A stretch of 64,000 bases of DNA. Origin: Paramecium tetraurelia (lineage: Eukaryota > Ciliophora > Oligohymenophorea > Peniculida > Parameciidae). A program made the translations under genes and the position numbers. Shown one piece after another: positions 22,893 to 64,000 of this stretch. The stretch is from contig NW_001798967.1 in the NCBI RefSeq assembly GCF_000165425.1, positions 345,657 through 409,656 of the forward strand, in the 5' to 3' direction. How positions within the stretch are numbered: position 1 is the stretch's first letter; each line of letters starts with the position of its first letter. Below the pieces are notes generated by a model. That model was not told the DNA's origin. It did not search any database and saw nothing but the letters and a program-made list of their open reading frames with translations.

Positions 22893-25316
22893 ATGAACGT
22901 TTAATCAACTCACTAATCTACTTTACAGGACTTCTAAATTATTCAAGAATTGGGATCTGGTTCATTTAGCAACGTTTATAGAGTATACATAGTTTGTATT
23001 ATTCTTAGGTCAAAAGGATTGCAGATGGATAAGAATATGCTTTAAAAAAAGTTAAAATAGCTAACCTGAAACCTAAGGAAAAATAGAATGCTCTAAATGA
23101 AGTGAGATTTTTATATTCTATTAATCACAAACATATTGTTGCATACAAGGTAAGTTCCTTTTTTGGAATTTTAGGAAGCCTTTATTGATGAACCGTCTTA
23201 ATGCCTTTGCATAGTTATGGAACTACTGTCAGGCGGAGATGTCTATAAAAAGATTTCTTAAGCCAGAGGTTCCACTCCCTTTACAGAAATAGACATCTGG
23301 AGAGCACTGATTCACATTACTTTAGGGTATTGTGAATTCATATAATTGATAGATTGAAGGCTCTTCACGATTAAAAGGTAGTACATAGAGATCTAAAGTC
23401 TGCTAACGTTTTTTTATCAAGTGATGGAACTTTCAAACTTGGAGATTTAAATGTTTCCAAAGTTGCCAAAGCAGGCTTTGTATATACATAAACAGGTACT
23501 CCATATTATGCCAGTCCAGAAGTATGGAGAGATTAACCATACGATATGAAAAGTGATATCTGGTAATTATTTTTTTTATTTTTAAGGTCACTTGGATGTG
23601 TAATATATGAAATGTGTAGTTTGCAGACTCCATTCAGAGCAAAAGATATGGATTTGTTATTTCAAAAGGTCTAGAGAGGAACTTATGATTAAATACAAAG
23701 TCATTTTTCAAAAGATCTATCTCAAATGATCTCGAGCTTATTGCAAATATAGCCTCATCTAAGACCAACTTGTGATTAGATACTTGCTAATCCTATTGTT
23801 TAAAAACATATGAAGAATTTAGAAACTAACATAGAAACAAAACCAATTAATAAAACTCTTATGGAAACTATTCAATTTCCAAATAATTTTAAATAATTGA
23901 AAAATAAATTGCCAAAGGTATTATTAAATTAAATTATTAAGTCAAATTACGATGAAGTTAATCCAAATGTTAGTGCTGATAGAGTTTAAGACAACAAATC
24001 TACTGATAAATCTACAAGTCCATTTCGATACCCTCAACAATAATACCTACCTATTACCGAATCAGGAATCAGCCAAAGTTAAAGTTAAAGCCAAGTCAAT
24101 GTAATATAAGCACAACAATCTTCTCCTTAGTAAATTAAAAATAATTCTATTTTGGATAAAAATTCAATTGGCGTTCAGCAACCTCAACCTCAAATTCGCT
24201 AATAATCTTACAATAATAAAACTGAAAAGCCTCAGTCTGCCTAACTTAATTCAAGATAAAATCCTTATGAAAGAGCACATGAATTGAAAGAACAAAAAGA
24301 AAGGGAAATCAGATAATAAAGAGAAAAAGACTAATTATTAAGAGAAAAACGAGAGAGAGATGCTAGAGAGGCTAAATTAGCCAAAGAAGCTAAGGAGAAA
24401 TAAATCCAAGAAGCTAAAGAGAGATAAATCCAAGAAGCTAAAGAGAGATAACTTCAGGAAGCCAAACTTCGAGAGAGTAGAGAATAATAAAGGCTTTTAA
24501 TGGAGAAGCAACAAAGAGAATAACAAGAATAACAGTAATTTAGAAGAGTTTCTCCAATCTCAGCTTAACCTCGAGACTATTAGAATGCTAACTATATGAA
24601 CTAACAATAACCAAGAAGTCAACATTCCTATTCTCCTATCACTAGACAAGCGGAATAATAATAGGGTTATAAGTATTACATTATTTCTATTTAGTGGCTA
24701 AAGAGTCAATTATGGTAACTAATTGCAACAGAGACCAATAAATAGCCAGTCAATCAACGTGAGTCAAAACTATCCTAGTCAATATAGCAGACCCTATAAT
24801 TAGGAAATACCTCAGCATAGAATATCATAAACTCCTTAATCTGCTGCTCCTAGACAATAATACAGTCCTTTTCAAAAGCCAGTTACAGAAAGGTACCCTG
24901 CTCATCCACAATCTGCTTTACCATCATCTAATATTAGAGAATCTTAGAAATCTGAAAGGCCTTAAGTGTTTCCATCCTCAGCCAAAGTTGTTAAATAAAG
25001 ATAATCTGATACTAATTTGAAAAAAGAATTTTCATCACCCGCCTAATAATAGGCAATTAGGCCTGCTGGAAAAGCTTCAAGGCAATAATCCAATAATATT
25101 TTTTAACAAATAGACAGGATTAAGTCTGATCCTAAACCATAGAATAACTTTATTGCTGGCAATTATAATCATTTCTATCCAATTGATAATTATCAGAGAC
25201 ATGCATCAGATTAGAATTTAATAAAATATTAGTAATAATTTTGGTTATATTATAGACTTCGATAATAAGATAGACAAGTATTACTACGTCCACAGATTAA
25301 TAACAGAAAATATTGA
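22893..25316 (+). CDS. NIMA-related (NEK) protein kinase
   Basis: 766 residues with introns of 26, 25, 26, 24 and 22 nt, total in frame. The N-terminal kinase domain shows GSGSFSNVYR, ALKKVKI, VMELLSGGDVYKKI, HRDLKSANVFLS, TGTPYYASPEVW and SLGCVIYEMC, the standard NEK set. The DFG motif is replaced by DLN (KLGDLNVSK); Asp is retained. After the kinase domain comes a charged coiled coil (REARLAKEAKEKQIQEAKE region) with tandem KEAKER-type repeats, then a Gln/Pro/Ser-rich tail. NEKs in ciliates control ciliary length and basal-body behaviour, so that is the likely setting. The intron in the middle of the kinase domain (after HITLG) restores LKALHDQKVVHRD. Confidence 0.92.
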
Positions 25317-48312: not shown

Positions 48313-49945
48313 TCAATTCCTATACTGTCTCTATATTTGACCATCAGGATAAACTATATCTACATTTCCATTTGGATATTCGATTTACTTTACTTTTTAA
48401 CTATTAATCTTTTATATTATCCCATCACTGAAGAAAGTCTACTCTTCACCACTGGCATTTATGTACTTTTCAGTTCCATCTCCAAATCTAATTTCTTTCG
48501 TGCCATCATTAAAATGAATTTCGATCTATTAATTGGAAAAACGATAAATCTAAAAATCTATCTAAATATAATACATTTGGTCCATTGGCAATTGTAATTT
48601 GAGTCGTACTTGCATCAGCAAAATAATATATTACTGTTCCATTGGGTAAAGTCTGCTTTACATCTTTATTGGTAAAGTGAACTACAACATATCCATCAGG
48701 AAATACTTCCCTCTTAACTCCATTATGGAAAACTACCTCTTTTTTACCATTAGAATATTGTCTAGATATTTTACCATCAGGACCAACATTTTGATTAATT
48801 ATTTTTGAAGGAACATCCTTATTCTTTCTATAACCCTGATAAAAACGATTTTAATCATAATTAAATTCCTATTCCGAAATCAAACTATTGATATTTTTTA
48901 TTGTAAATGGGATACCTTCATCCTACATTTCTACTAAATCATATTTCTTAGTATTTTATTATTACAAATTTCTTTTTTATTTTTCCTATCTATAATCATT
49001 CTCCTCTTAACTATCATCACTCAGGTCATCATTTTATTATTCCTCATCATTATCGTTATCATAATCGTTTTCATCATCTGATTCTTATTTCCTATATTCC
49101 TATATTGATTATTTATGTTTTATTTATTGTTCCTCCACAAAACTGTTTGGGCTTTGTCTTCTATTCTTTTATTGTGGTACCTCTTTCTTTTAAGAAAGTC
49201 CAGAAACACTGGGTTTCAATTAAATTTATTAGGATTTGCTTTATTAAATTGTTGCTTAAGAGTTTGGTCTCTTCTATTCTAACAATCTAAGTTCTAAGGC
49301 TTTTACCTCAGCCTACAATTCTTAGTTTCTTTATGATAATTCTTCATTCTATTTCTTTAATCTATCATAGGATAACTTATTCTTTTGATCTTTTTATTTC
49401 TATTCTTCTGTTAATTTTTAAACCTACTATTTTAATAATTCTATTTCTTCTCGTTCTTTTCTATTGGGCAAATTTTATATCGTTTTTTGTTGCCTTTCTT
49501 ACACTCTTTTTTCCCTTAGCATTTTTTTTTTCTCTTCTTCCTTCCATTCTTCTAATTCATGTTTTTCTATTTCTTTTTACTTCTCCCACTCTTCTCTCTC
49601 TCTTTGTAATTATTTCAATTAATCATCACATTTCACTTTAGCTTTCTTAACCTTTTCATTTTCACTCTTAAATTTAGCAATTTCAGCATTTAAATTATCA
49701 ATCTTGTCTTATACATATTTCCTTACGATTTCTTCTTCAGATTCTTGAGGTTAAGGTTTCTCTTATTTTTTTTCTTTTCCATCTTTTTCCTTTTTTAATC
49801 CAAAATAGGAGGTTGCAATCTTGGATTATTTAGGAGGTTCATCATTCCAATCTTCATTATCATCAAATTAATATTCTTAATATGAGTCTTGATGATTTTC
49901 AGATTCTTCTTTTTGTTTGAGAGGTTTTTATTATATTTATTATTG

Positions 49946-49982
<37 letters not shown>

Positions 49983-51651
49983 TACTTAGGAGGCTATTAT
50001 TATTTAGGTTATTCCTTTGATAAATCCTATTTTTTTTGTCTTTATTAGACTTCTTTCTATTCTTACTTAAATTCAACTTTTTATTATTATTATATTTTTT
50101 AAGGTTTAAATTAATTGCTTTAATTTTAAATAGGAAGAACCCCTGAAGCATTATTCTCCTTTAAAATTTCAGCATGTTCTTTTTTAGCAATATCAGATCT
50201 TTACTAAGCGTTTGATAAAAATTATCTTGTTCCTTTTTTCAAAAATGCTTTTTTCTTGGCACGCCCTTAATCTTCAAAATTAGCCTCTTCAAGTGGTTTT
50301 TTAAAGTGATTTCTCGGAGGCATTTCATCAAACTCCTGGTTTTTGTTAGATTTAATAGGCATGTCATCAAATGCTGAATTTTTATTGTTTCTAATAGGGA
50401 TCTCATCGAATGCAGAATTTTTATTTGTCTTTATAGGCATATCATCAAATGCTGTGTTTTTATTTGTCTTCACAGGTATTTCATCAAAAGTTTAGTTTTT
50501 ATTTGTCTTTATAGGCATGTCATCAAAGCCTTAATTTTTATTTGTCTTAATAGGAATGTCATCAAAACCTTAATTTTTATTTGTTTTAATGGGTATATCA
50601 TCAAAACCTTAATTTTTATTTGTTTTAATTGGTATGTCATCAAATGCCTGGTTTTTAGCAGGTTTAATTGGAACTTCATCAAAGGAGTTCTTTTTGGTTT
50701 TGATTGTTTAATCTTCATAACCTTTCTTAACAGGTTTAATTGCAATTTCATCGAAATTATTTTAATTTTGCTTTGTGGAAGGGATTGGGACTTCATCAAA
50801 AGGATTAGAATAGTTTGTTCTCTTAATGGGTTAATCTTCAAATTATTTAGATTATTTATGATTTTATTAATTTTGCCATTGTGTTTCTTCTTATTATTTA
50901 GTAAAATCATCTTGTTTCATAGTTCTAATAGGAATGTCATCGAAATTATTGCTTTTTATAGGTTTAATTGGCATTTCATCAAAGGGATTAGATTATTATT
51001 TAAAATCATACTCATCTTATTAATATAAATTATTTTTATTAAAATTGGATCGAATTTATTGTTCATCTTGAGTAGCTTATTTAATTGGTATATCATCAAA
51101 AGCAGGAGTTTTCTTTTATGGTTATTTTTGTTATTTATTGTACATGTCTTCATTATCTGATTAATCAAAATTTTGAATTTATTATTTAGTTGATCTCTGA
51201 TCTCCATATTCATTGAGTCTATGTTAGCGTTGTTTTTGATCTTATTTATTTTTATATTAATTGAACAGTTCATTATCTGGCAAAGTATAATCATGAAACT
51301 CATTTCTGTAATTCGAAGTTACTTAAATATCATCAAAGTGAAGTTATCTATTGGTGTTTACGTTGGTTTCCTACTTAATACTAATAATTACTTCTTAGTA
51401 TTTGGATGGATTATAGTTATGGATGAATTAGGATGACTATTATAATTAACATTCTTCAGGTTTCATTTGGTTGTAGAATTAATTCATATCATTAACTTTG
51501 TTATGGTAAAACTTTTCTAAATCAAAACCTTGACATAAGAAAATCAAATACCAGAAGATTGGGTTTGCATCATTTACATCATTTGCTGTTGAAACATTTT
51601 CATCATACTCTGCATCATGACATCGTTGGGATTGATGTTTTGATTTGTCAT
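48313..51651 (-). CDS. SAS-4/CPAP (CENPJ) homologue with TCP10-C domain
   Basis: 1,096 residues with introns of 23 nt (near the start) and 25 nt (near the C-terminus), exact. SAS-4/CPAP builds centriolar and basal-body microtubules. The C-terminal 190 residues are the TCP10_C/G-box: GPDGKISRQYSNGKKEVVF, FPDGYVVVHFTNKDVKQTLP, GTVIYYFADASTTQI, IHFNDGTKEIRFGDGTEKY and YPNGNVDIVYPDGQIQRQY, with the typical recurring PDG/NG turns. Preceding it is a coiled coil (EREEIELLKQQVQKL). The N-terminal half is unlike animal CPAP: about 17 copies of F-D-[DE]-x-P-[IV]-K, the best ten in a 14-residue tandem, followed by a polyQ tract at 49935-49985. The N-terminus is Met-rich (DVMMQSMMKMFQQQMMQMMQ). The tubulin-binding PN2-3 motif was not found. 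Confidence 0.85.
50300..50720 (-). repeat. 42-bp coding tandem repeat in the SAS-4 homologue
   Basis: About ten consecutive 42-bp units, each coding for 14 residues of the type NKNxxFDDxPIKT (for example GFDDIPIKTNKNQ, AFDEIPIRNNKNS). Degenerate copies extend to about 51110. Neighbouring units are nearly identical at the DNA level, which suggests recent unequal exchange. Confidence 0.85.
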
Positions 51652-51735: not shown

Positions 51736-53247
51736 TCAAAATTAACTCCAAAATTCAAATAGAAATTAGGCTTGGTGATCATTTTAAATCTTTTTCAACT
51801 TATCACAATGTTGTAAGGCTTCCTTAACGATCTCACTGGATTTGCTAGCATCAATCAACTTTTGAGTGCGTAGTTTGAATTAAAATAAATATAATATTTG
51901 AATATATGGGAATCTATCGCATAATTTTATATAATACCTATTCTCTTTCTCTTCTTCAATAACCTACTTGATGAAGTCTATATTCTCATCAAGATATTTA
52001 TTAATTTCATGTATTGCCCCTTAAAACTCTTATTAAATAGTATTAGTTTATTTAAATCCTTCATTATCGAATGTTACATCGATTTCACTTGGAATTAGAA
52101 ATTTGGAGAACTCATCTTCACTAATCATTGTATCTAAAGCTCCATTTTAATATATTTAATTAAGAATCCTTATTTTTAAGTTATTTAGTTATTGTTCTTC
52201 AAAAGTAATAATAACATTAATGCCTTCCACTTTCACATTGATAATTTTGAGAGCATTTTCGTTATTAAACAGTTCAAAGGAGTTCTCCACATTAGTTATT
52301 GCCCTGTTAAATTATAATGTGACTGAATTATTTGAAATCTTTTCGACTTTTGTTACACCAAAGGGTTAAACAACACCAACTAGCCATCTGTGATATAAAA
52401 AAACACCGTGTTCTTTTGGTTGTATATAAATTGCTTATTAAATTAGTTCTGTTTCTTCTTTCAATCTATCATAAGGCAAAGGTAGTAAACCTAAAATTTT
52501 ATCAGATTTAATTCTCTCAATGATATTTTCAGGTTAATTGTAGTTTTTCATAAAAAATTTGCTTCTGAAGTGATAAGCCGAAAAATTACTAAAGTTTTAT
52601 TCAATCTAAATAGTATTATTAATAAATATACCTTTTTCTTAGTAAATTCATCTTCTCTTCCAAAAGCACAAATTGATGATAACCAATTTCTATAATTCCA
52701 AACATGAAAATTACGTTCGTCTCTGTCTAACATTTTGCTGCATAATTCATATTCCTGTTTGATGGCTTCTATCAATTTAAGTTAGTTATCTTAATTACTT
52801 TATAATAAGATTAATTAAATACATTGAACTAATGAGCTAATCTATTTCTTAGCTTCTTAAAACCATCCATTATCTATGAGTCCAAAGAGTGTATGATTTT
52901 GGATGCTATTTTAGTAATATAGCTATGAGCATAAACTCAGATTGAATCAATTTGACTAACTACTTATATGCATCTATGCTTTTTGATTCTGTAAGTAATC
53001 CTCCTAAATGATCAAACTTTGTTTAAAGCACCTCTCTTCTGTAATTATAAATAGTAGCAATTTCAGGACATAACTTAGCCATAAGTTCTGAAAAAGCTAA
53101 TTGATCTTCAGGTTAATTCACTTGATTTTTTCTCACTTTAAAAAAATAGTCTAAAGAATCTAATATCTATTGTCCTTTTTCTGCTCTTTGCTTTATCTCT
53201 TCTTCAGACAATATTTCAGTCCTTGATTTAGATTAACCATGCATCAT
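51736..53247 (-). CDS. RABGGTA: Rab geranylgeranyltransferase alpha subunit
   Basis: 478 residues with introns of 25, 26 and 24 nt, exact. With the beta subunit and REP it adds geranylgeranyl groups to Rab GTPases. PFTA repeats seen: IYNYRREVLQTKF, SYTLWTHRQWMVL, ERNFHVWNYRNWLSSI, AYHFRSKFFM and VFLYHRWLVGVV, with the conserved W-x-x-R pattern. After the fifth repeat comes a beta-rich stretch (KVEKISNNSVTLQFNRAITN, NVKVEGINVIITFEE), where mammalian RABGGTA carries an Ig-like domain. A helical C-terminus follows. Start: two adjacent ATG codons (53247 and 53244). The gene stands 84 bp upstream of the SAS-4 homologue and 45 bp downstream of BUD23 on the same strand. Confidence 0.9.
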
Positions 53248-53292
53248 CTTTTATCAGAATATATAAAATTAAATAAAATAATTTAAAATACA

Positions 53293-54207
53293 TCATTTGA
53301 ATAAGCCTAGATTATTTCTTTTTCTTCCTGTGTATTTGGTAGTCTTTTTAATTTTCCTACCTAATCTAGCCTATTTTTCTTTTCTCTTAATAATCCATAA
53401 TTTAGATTTTTCATTTACATTCTTTTATTTTTTTTATTTCCTAATTTTCTTTTATTATCTTCCAATAACTTTAACTTTTTCATCATCTGATTCTTCAACT
53501 AATCCTTAAATAACATCCATAGTCTTTTTGGATGATTATCCTCCTAATTGTACAACTAGATAAAGCTTTTTGGCTTTAGCAGAATTAGGATAGTCAACAA
53601 CAATGTCACCACTAAAACCTAATTACATAACTCTTCTTTAGAATACCTGCTCTTAAAGCGGCACTAGTAATCATATTTATTTATTCGTTGTTCTCTGGAT
53701 AGAATTGAAAAACTCCCCTTCCATTATTTTTTAAGCAGTTTCTAAGAGATTCAAAGAAAACAGTGCATCTTCTATATGGGTTTTCTGATTTCTTAAAACT
53801 CACGCATAACCATTAAATAACAGAAATTGAAATAGCAGCATCAAAGACTCCTGGTCTAAATTTAAAACCTTGTCCAATATCGCATAATAATAATTCCCCT
53901 TCTGTCTTTTCTTATTGAGCTACATTCAACATTGATTCTGAAATATCTAATCCTACCCAATTCACCCCTTCTTATGTTAGATAAAACCCTGAAATTCCAG
54001 AACCACACCCAATATCAAGTACTAAACTGCATTCATCTAGATTTAGATCCAATAATTAGATAGCTCTTTCACTTAATTAAGTTTGAATATTGATAATTCT
54101 ATTGCAATTAGTATATTTAACACTTTCCTATTGATTATAATACTAGAGGATGACTACATGATGATACTTACTAGATTTGGTGGTAATTGTGATTCTGGTC
54201 GTGACAT
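53293..54207 (-). CDS. BUD23: 18S rRNA (guanine-N7)-methyltransferase BUD23
   Basis: 285 residues with introns of 29 nt (GTAAGTATCA...CCTCTAG) and 28 nt (GTATTCTAAA...AATTAG), exact. BUD23, with its partner TRMT112, methylates a guanine in 18S rRNA during 40S maturation. Seen: the start MSRPESQLPPNLYYN (family-typical), SAM-binding motif I LVLDIGCGSGISGFYL, motif II VGLDISESML, CDIGQGFKFRPGVFDAAISI followed by VIQWLC, GRGVFQFYPENNEQINMI, and the C-terminal lysine-rich BUD23 extension with RLGRKIKKTTKYTGRKR. The whole set matches, and the length is normal. Confidence 0.95.
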
Positions 54208-63398: not shown

Positions 63399-64000
63399 TC
63401 AAAGAAGTTAAGGCTTTTTTTTCAATGCTTAAGTATTAATTTTACCACGTATCATAGACTTAGCATGGTTATCTTATTATTCAACTACTTATTGAAACGT
63501 TTAAGTATGAATGTTACCACGTATCATAGACTTTGAATGATTATCTTATTATTCAACTACTTATTTAAACGCTTAAGTATAAATGTTACCACGTATAATA
63601 GACTCGTTACATTATTCTAATGCTTCTTTAACTTTCATTGCCCTATCATGATTTTCTTCTCTTTAAGCATCAGTTATGGGTTATTATGTCATAGTTTGTA
63701 CAATTTTATTAGGTTGAAATTAAGAAACTTAAAGGTCATTGACTGACTTGTTTTTATTAATCTTTTTGGTTCCTCCTTTTGTTAACTTATTTATTACTTC
63801 ATTAATTGTAATTCTCTTATTGGGATCGATTTACATCATTTATAAAACAAGATTGACATGCTCTAAATTACCAATCTTGTTTTTAATTTTTTCCTCTAAG
63901 CTTTCTTATTTAGTACTCAATATCAAATCAAAGATTTCTTAGTTGCTGTTGCCCATGAATAAGACCTCTCCAGAAAATAGTTCATAAATCACTGCTCCTA
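63399..64000 (-). CDS. Serine/threonine protein kinase, C-terminal part (cut by window end)
   Basis: The frame enters from beyond position 64000. It shows kinase subdomains IX-XI (GAVIYELFSGEVLFMGNSNQ, VNLVLQMMQIDPNKRITINE), enough to recognise the C-lobe, so HRD and DFG must lie outside the window. A Lys/Gln-rich linker (TKKINKNKSVNDLQVSQF) follows, then nearly three copies of a 24-residue repeat containing SMIRGNIHTQTFQQVVEQQD, and the end ALKKKPQLL. No intron is needed in the visible part. It converges on the TALE gene with 57 bp between stops. Confidence 0.8.
63425..63607 (-). repeat. 72-bp coding tandem repeat
   Basis: Units start at 63425, 63497 and 63569 (period 72 bp; the third is partial). 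Each contains ACCACGTATCATAGACT or a close variant. On the minus strand they code for a 24-residue repeat at the end of the kinase gene. Confidence 0.9.

Follow-up and report, generated by a model that had tools for sequence, protein, structure and literature searches.

A SAS-4/CPAP protein of Paramecium with an array of motifs related to the opening of the CPAP tubulin-binding region

Introduction

CPAP/SAS-4 sets the length of centrioles through its tubulin-binding region. The opening segment of this region is positioned on the longitudinal, plus-end-facing side of β-tubulin near the vinca-alkaloid site, and the capping helix is located next to it. The SAC box, which is found further on in the chain, grips the outer face of β-tubulin. 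Sas-4 proteins are reportedly needed in the duplication of Paramecium basal bodies, as the title of a study by Gogendeau from 2011 has it. A gene of this family from Paramecium tetraurelia, contained in a 64,000-nucleotide stretch of DNA that is called the window here, encodes a protein with numerous copies of a short motif, FD[DE]xP[IV]K, in its N-terminal half. The locus raises the question of what this motif is, and what so many copies of it could do in a SAS-4 protein.

Results

Gene structure and family assignment

The gene is encoded on the minus strand (48313..51651), with the ATG at 51651 and the stop codon ending at 48313, in a spliced model that agrees with the relatives of the protein. 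The interval proposed in an earlier note on this DNA corresponds exactly to the gene from ATG to stop codon. Translated with the ciliate code, the protein is 1096 residues long in the model used here, and would be 1089 residues long if a possible third intron were removed. Intron 1 (51529..51551, minus strand, 23 nt) and intron 2 (48550..48574, minus strand, 25 nt) were located from the sequence and placed by comparison with paralogues. The junction of intron 1, SSG-FDLEKF, is identical in the paralogues C200 and C189 and in the protein from P. sonneborni. The junction of intron 2 reads NGPN-IYRF in the paralogues and P. sonneborni, with SGPN-IYRF in C189. The possible third intron (51371..51391, minus strand) is 21 nt long and frame-neutral, and it is likely spliced out of the window gene, because C189 requires the removal of a 22-nt intron at the same place to maintain its reading frame. 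Among the matches listed, the named relatives with the best scores belong to Paramecium species.

The protein had been described as a SAS-4/CPAP homologue with a clear TCP10 domain, and this assignment holds. The spliced C-terminus scores 67.7 bits against the TCP10 profile, compared to a cut-off of 36, and the unspliced C-terminal exon alone remains under the cut-off at 28.4 bits. The best five matches in a structural search are TCP10 domains of CPAP. The strand part of the TCP10/G-box domain, which holds intron 2, corresponds to 48313..48802 of the minus strand according to its predicted structure, structural matches, and profile score. The central coiled coil (49271..49738, minus strand) is predicted to be a single long helix and includes the conserved sequence PNRKEREEI, an instance of the [PD][NK][RK]KEREEI stretch identified in an alignment of 18 proteins. 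The SAC box motif FLK[KR]G is also present. In a phylogenetic tree, the long proteins of Paramecium are united in one short-branched group (92/95), and a branch with a length of 1.43 leads to the short paralogues; the deep forks of the tree are weak, with long branches meeting, and the placement of P0003 is also weak (69/53). On the basis of its sequence, the window gene encodes a Paramecium protein of the SAS-4/CPAP family. The long Paramecium protein looks like the conserved SAS-4, and the short one like a faster-changing copy.

The two neighbouring genes at 51736-54052, also on the minus strand, presumably encode a protein-prenyltransferase alpha subunit and a Bud23-like methyltransferase, and the counterparts of both adjoin C200. 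The window contains two other tandem repeats, one at 24384-24466 (24 bp × 3.5, with a unit that is a multiple of three) and one at 63427-63604 (72 bp × 2.5).

Organization of the motif array

The array is composed of 17 FD[DE]xP[IV]K-like units (50312..51100, minus strand) in a part of the protein that is predicted to be disordered, with a pLDDT of about 35–41. The count covers the region N-terminal of the SAC box and relies on a pattern with six scored positions and one deviation allowed. When this region is shuffled 1000 times, it contains 0.13 units on average and never more than 2. A stricter pattern identifies 15 units. The initial count of about 17 copies in the N-terminal half stands; both unit patterns, and the helix pattern employed below, were drawn up after the sequences had been inspected. 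An outlying degenerate unit at residue 98, FDDIQVT (51317..51337, minus strand), is an 18th unit added by eye. The successive spacings of the units are 39, 13, 34, 14, 15, 12, and 12 residues, followed by nine spacings of 13 residues. Units of the array are represented by the sequence FDDIPIKTNKNQG.

The regular part of the array (50312..50683, minus strand) contains 10 units in a 13-residue register. The earlier note had identified a ten-unit tandem but described it as a perfect 42-bp repeat. However, the period of the DNA is 39 bp, the pairwise DNA identity of the 10 units ranges from 0.51 to 0.95, and the last unit is degenerate, with the sequence FDEMPPR. A recent perfect DNA repeat is ruled out, because the units have diverged in their DNA. 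In the 55 units from the window, C200, C189, and P. sonneborni proteins, the commonest residues at positions 1–7 are F (49), D (48), E (34) or D (21), I (31), P (47), I (44), and K (41). Position 4 is occupied by I, M, V, Q, or N, and position 10 is K in 41 of the 55 units.

The motif corresponds to the opening segment of CPAP PN2-3

An alignment of 27 rows, from which P0022, P0023, and P0024 were dropped as they contain no recognisable SAC box, places the motif at one fixed position, which precedes both the capping helix and the SAC box, with the first residue of the motif 12–16 residues before the first F of the helix. At this position, the human CPAP chains from the tubulin complexes 5itz, 7z0f, and 7q1e read IEERPIK, which corresponds to residues I322-K328 in the numbering of F338, E343, and F375 given in PMC4912634. 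The refuting outcome named in the earlier note, a lack of the motif in orthologues, did not occur: [DE][DE]xP[IV] is found at the canonical place in 16 of the 22 non-array rows, and four others (P0015, P0018, P0019, and L015) deviate from it at one position. P0005 has no motif at the canonical place and three copies upstream, and the gene model of P0016 is cut short there. The first position of the motif is F in ciliates and I, L, T, or H in vertebrates. The motif is not unique to the window protein, since SAS-4 proteins of vertebrates and of the ciliate type carry single copies at this position; the label ciliate-type was assigned in this analysis to P0003-P0005, P0013-P0015, and P0021.

Profile comparisons point to the same correspondence. 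A profile built from nine ciliate-type regions, none of which includes a Paramecium array, was compared to 177635 PDB sequences. Four human CPAP chains rank first, with E-values from 5.1e-4 to 4.7e-3, and the next match, which is unrelated, has an E-value of 0.094. Aligned by hhalign, the nine-region profile reaches 91.4% against human CPAP and 98.0% against the window region. In the Pfam profile PF25779, the P of FDDIPIK from P0003 shares its profile position with that of the vertebrate sequences LEDRPIR and TEERPIV. PF25779 has no match in the window exon, the window PN2-3 piece, or the short-paralogue piece, nor in 10 of the ciliate-type or Paramecium proteins, of which 12 were scanned; of the other two, P0003 exceeds the cut-off and P0005 falls slightly short of it. 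A profile of the array unit alone has 0 matches in the PDB. The homology of the motif to the opening of the CPAP tubulin-binding region, that is the start of LID, is well supported by these sequence comparisons. Because the motif is a homologue of the first residues of that region, it is not itself new, and the unusual part is the number of its copies.

BLASTP aligns a short paralogue to the window region with 37 of 66 residues identical and pairs the single motif of the paralogue with the last unit of the window array, the degenerate FDEMPPR. The window protein therefore seems to have a decayed copy at the ancestral position. It is the copy nearest to the canonical place, and many intact copies are located upstream of it.

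Decay of the capping helix and preservation of the SAC box

The array is followed by a remnant of the CPAP capping helix (FKKPLEE..., 50255..50311, minus strand), recognized by alignment with a short paralogue. A nine-position helix pattern derived from the alignment was scored in 25 rows, with L013 and L015 excluded. All 20 non-array rows score 8–9 out of 9. By contrast, all five array proteins score 5–6, and the window protein scores 5. The window protein retains F-KKP-LEE of the capping helix, and the helix with its EE343 pair is otherwise not matched. The SAC box (KKKAFLKKGTRQFLSN..., 50153..50254, minus strand), which is the second half of the CPAP tubulin-binding region, was delimited by alignment and hhalign. 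It is intact in all five long Paramecium proteins, whereas the capping helix has decayed, and its dN/dS between the window protein and C200 is 0.014.

The regular array has a unit length of 12–13 residues, similar to the 12–14 residues by which the single motif of ciliate-type proteins is separated from the first F of their capping helix, and within 50312-50683 the F-D-D of each next unit falls at the place of the F-E-D of the capping helix. The unit may be a copy of the motif together with the linker up to the start of the capping helix.

Of the 22 non-array rows, 14 (L013, P0003, P0004, P0006-P0015, and P0021) have a second box of the FLxxGxG type after the SAC box. The five long Paramecium proteins all lack this second box, which could provide another grip on tubulin.

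Distribution and copy number of the motif

The 69-Mb assembly of the same genome contains two further array genes. C200 has 15 units, including the doubtful YDDNYIK and the degenerate FDDIPRK, and C189 has 13, including MEEQPKK. In a comparison of open reading frames, the neighbours of C200 match those of the window gene on both sides, and C200 therefore looks like its whole-genome-duplication copy. The proteins from P. sonneborni and P. bursaria contain 10 and 9 units, respectively, so that the five long Paramecium proteins have 9–17 units each. The units of P. bursaria read ED[DE]RPIK, with R as in the human EERPIK. Three more TCP10 genes were found in the genome: C222 (L013), C143 (L014), and C181 (L015). 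C222 and C143 have one motif each and match short proteins from other aurelia species. C181, which has a motif-like site, is very divergent, with a tree branch of 2.88.

A search of the genome with the array as the query yields six matches with E-values up to 10, confined to the three long SAS-4 genes; no arrays were found in other genes by this loose first pass, which is not a proof of absence. The search of proteomes for such arrays, which the earlier note had suggested, identifies five proteins among 6392 candidates limited to 0.55–1.75 of the query length, all of them TCP10 proteins from Paramecium. Among the matches listed by this and two other searches, P. octaurelia, P. pentaurelia, and P. 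primaurelia are represented by short paralogues, and long orthologues of these three species are absent. The first search for relatives scored the best 7988 candidates by common words.

According to the stricter pattern, the regions N-terminal of the SAC box contain three copies in P0004 and P0005, four in P0006 and P0007, which are from Tetrahymena, two in P0013, P0015, and P0021, and one in P0003, P0014, each of the short Paramecium proteins P0008-P0012, the turtle protein P0020, and the frog protein P0017; P0019 has none. The pattern with one deviation allowed finds two copies in Tetrahymena and none in frog. The motif is single in human CPAP and in the short paralogues of Paramecium, and other ciliate-type SAS-4 proteins mostly have 1–4 copies. 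Judging by these counts, more than one copy of the motif is common in ciliate-type SAS-4. Comparison of the presence and number of repeats among orthologues shows that the motif is widespread, but long dense arrays are limited to Paramecium among the matches listed by three capped searches.

Conservation of the motif relative to its linkers

Between the window protein and C189, dN/dS is 0.092 for the motif and 0.519 for the linkers, and the difference in pN was reached in 0 of 2000 permutations. The difference from C200 has the same direction, with 0.132 for the motif and 0.272 for the linkers, and is weak, as it was reached in 107 of 2000 permutations. Within the regular tandem (nine full units, 36 pairs), the motif has a dS of 1.735, dN of 0.107, and ratio of 0.062, and the linkers, with a dS of 2.551, dN of 0.242, and ratio of 0.095, are almost as constrained, so that this comparison, in which dS is near saturation, hardly separates motif from linker. 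All these values are counting estimates; the within-tandem pairs are non-independent, and the aligner favours motifs.

The array could be an expanded repeat of little intrinsic function, located in a disordered linker of the Q/N-rich kind found in ciliates; slippage and unequal crossing-over would have multiplied the ancestral motif, and the number of units would drift. Such tracts are abundant in ciliate proteins, and the window protein itself also carries a poly-Q run. In addition, some of the units form a regular 39-bp tandem whose linkers are similar too, and the number of units differs among the paralogues (17, 15, and 13). However, the motif has been kept and the linkers have changed between the window protein and C189, the irregularly spaced units keep the motif, and P. 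bursaria has its own type and spacing of units with the same core. A repeat expansion is an unlikely explanation.

Discussion

The array probably arose when a weak tubulin-binding segment multiplied and became a disordered, multivalent tether for tubulin, with the blocking helix lost. An N-terminal stretch of PN2-3 is reported to sit in the vinca site (Campanacci 2022). This stretch should include the motif, because the CPAP chain in 7z0f starts at about residue 319, as inferred here, and the helix starts at residue 338. KVSD and a second stretch of β-tubulin, which line the vinca site, are present in the β-tubulin exon of the same genome, and this shows only that the site exists. The exon aligns without gaps over 331 residues to β-tubulin chains from the PDB, with no mismatch to the best of them.

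Human PN2-3N (residues 323-361) binds tubulin with an affinity of 68 µM, the SAC peptide binds it with 4.8 µM, and the two together reach 25.6 nM (PMC4912634). The presence of PN2-3N makes the binding of SAC about 140-fold stronger, and PN2-3N crosslinks to the lumen side of β-tubulin, from which vinblastine displaces it and colchicine does not (PMC4912634). The same source describes an approximately 8-fold lower affinity and faster growth in vitro for EE343RR, and overlong centrioles upon changes of the glutamate pair, EE343RR in human cells and EE78RR in flies. The release of CPAP-bound tubulin is not fully understood, in the words of its authors (PMC4912634). The 68-µM peptide includes the helix, and the motif alone may bind more weakly still. 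Because of these affinities and the displacement by vinblastine, together with the reported placement in the vinca site, each unit of the array is expected to be a weak β-tubulin ligand.

In the mechanism that we infer by analogy with human CPAP, each copy would act as a weak hand for β-tubulin, and the SAC box would be the stronger ligand. A row of many copies could keep more than one tubulin dimer, or more than one exposed β-tubulin end, near the SAC box, by holding or rebinding them. With the blocking helix gone, release would be favoured, and the held tubulin could be handed over to the growing microtubules of the basal body. It is possible, though put forward here only tentatively, that the one-to-one tubulin clutch of CPAP became in Paramecium SAS-4 a polyvalent chain of up to ~17 peptides of the vinca-site type, which loads several tubulins and, as its blocking helix is lost, feeds basal-body microtubules and does not sequester tubulin. 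If this is the case, the number of units would be a heritable setting for the supply of tubulin in cells that build thousands of basal bodies.

The motif was initially proposed to bind tubulin or a cartwheel protein many times over. Tubulin is the better candidate, since the motif is a homologue of the tubulin-binding opening of CPAP and binding by the copies may be expected by analogy; nothing was found that supports a cartwheel partner. The array might nevertheless bind another partner many times, for example a protein of the cartwheel or basal body, or one similar to Atg8, with the tubulin link of the ancestral copy not extended to the others. The aromatic residue at position 1 in ciliates and the variability of position 4 indicate that the specificity may have shifted, and FDDI resembles the core of an LIR motif. 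However, an LIR core does not accommodate the M and Q that occur at position 4, and an Atg8/LIR array was set aside because of these residues. Moreover, the same core has been kept at the CPAP position in relatives with a single copy, and another partner seems quite improbable. It is very improbable that each chain binds one tubulin through the SAC box and the many copies only raise the chance of docking on the same dimer. This would agree with the single SAC box per long chain and with a simple chain model of assumed lengths, in which a site at a distance of 5.2 nm is out of reach for the adjacent unit. However, the array is far longer than one ligand requires, and the model does allow units that are two to four positions apart to reach a site at this distance, at 0.1–0.6 mM.

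The long SAS-4 proteins of Paramecium, in which evolution has removed much of the capping helix and multiplied the segment next to it, represent a natural experiment that could tell the tubulin-holding half of LID from the blocking half. The array also supplies ready-made, presumably multivalent peptides for the vinca site of β-tubulin. No description of an array in SAS-4 was found in the literature searched; the 2011 study of Paramecium Sas-4 by Gogendeau, which was outside the search, may mention repeats.

The closest known system is PN2-3 of human CPAP/CENPJ (LID and SAC; PF25779; 5ITZ, 7Z0F, 7Q1E), which shares with the window protein the order of the motif [hydrophobic or F]-[DE]-[DE]-x-P-I-[KR], the helix position, and the SAC box, followed by the central coiled coil and TCP10 domain. 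Human CPAP has one motif and an intact capping helix, whereas the long Paramecium SAS-4 proteins have 9–17 copies and a decayed helix. The SAS-4-type proteins of Tetrahymena (P0006 and P0007) resemble the long Paramecium proteins in having more than one copy similar to DDERPIK or EEIPIK, but the copies are scattered, the capping helix scores 9 out of 9, and a second SAC-like box is present. The short Paramecium TCP10 paralogues (P0008-P0012, C222, and C143) share the motif, SAC box, and TCP10 domain with the window protein, and differ from it in their single motif, preserved helix (8 out of 9), length of about 580 residues, and long tree branch.

The TOG arrays of XMAP215 are tandem tubulin binders built from folded domains. 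If the tether reading is right, the Paramecium array is similar to them in placing repeated tubulin-binding units beside microtubule-binding parts. By contrast, the Paramecium units are short motifs in a disordered chain, and no homology to TOG domains is claimed. CPAP itself is likened to XMAP215 in PMC11756378.
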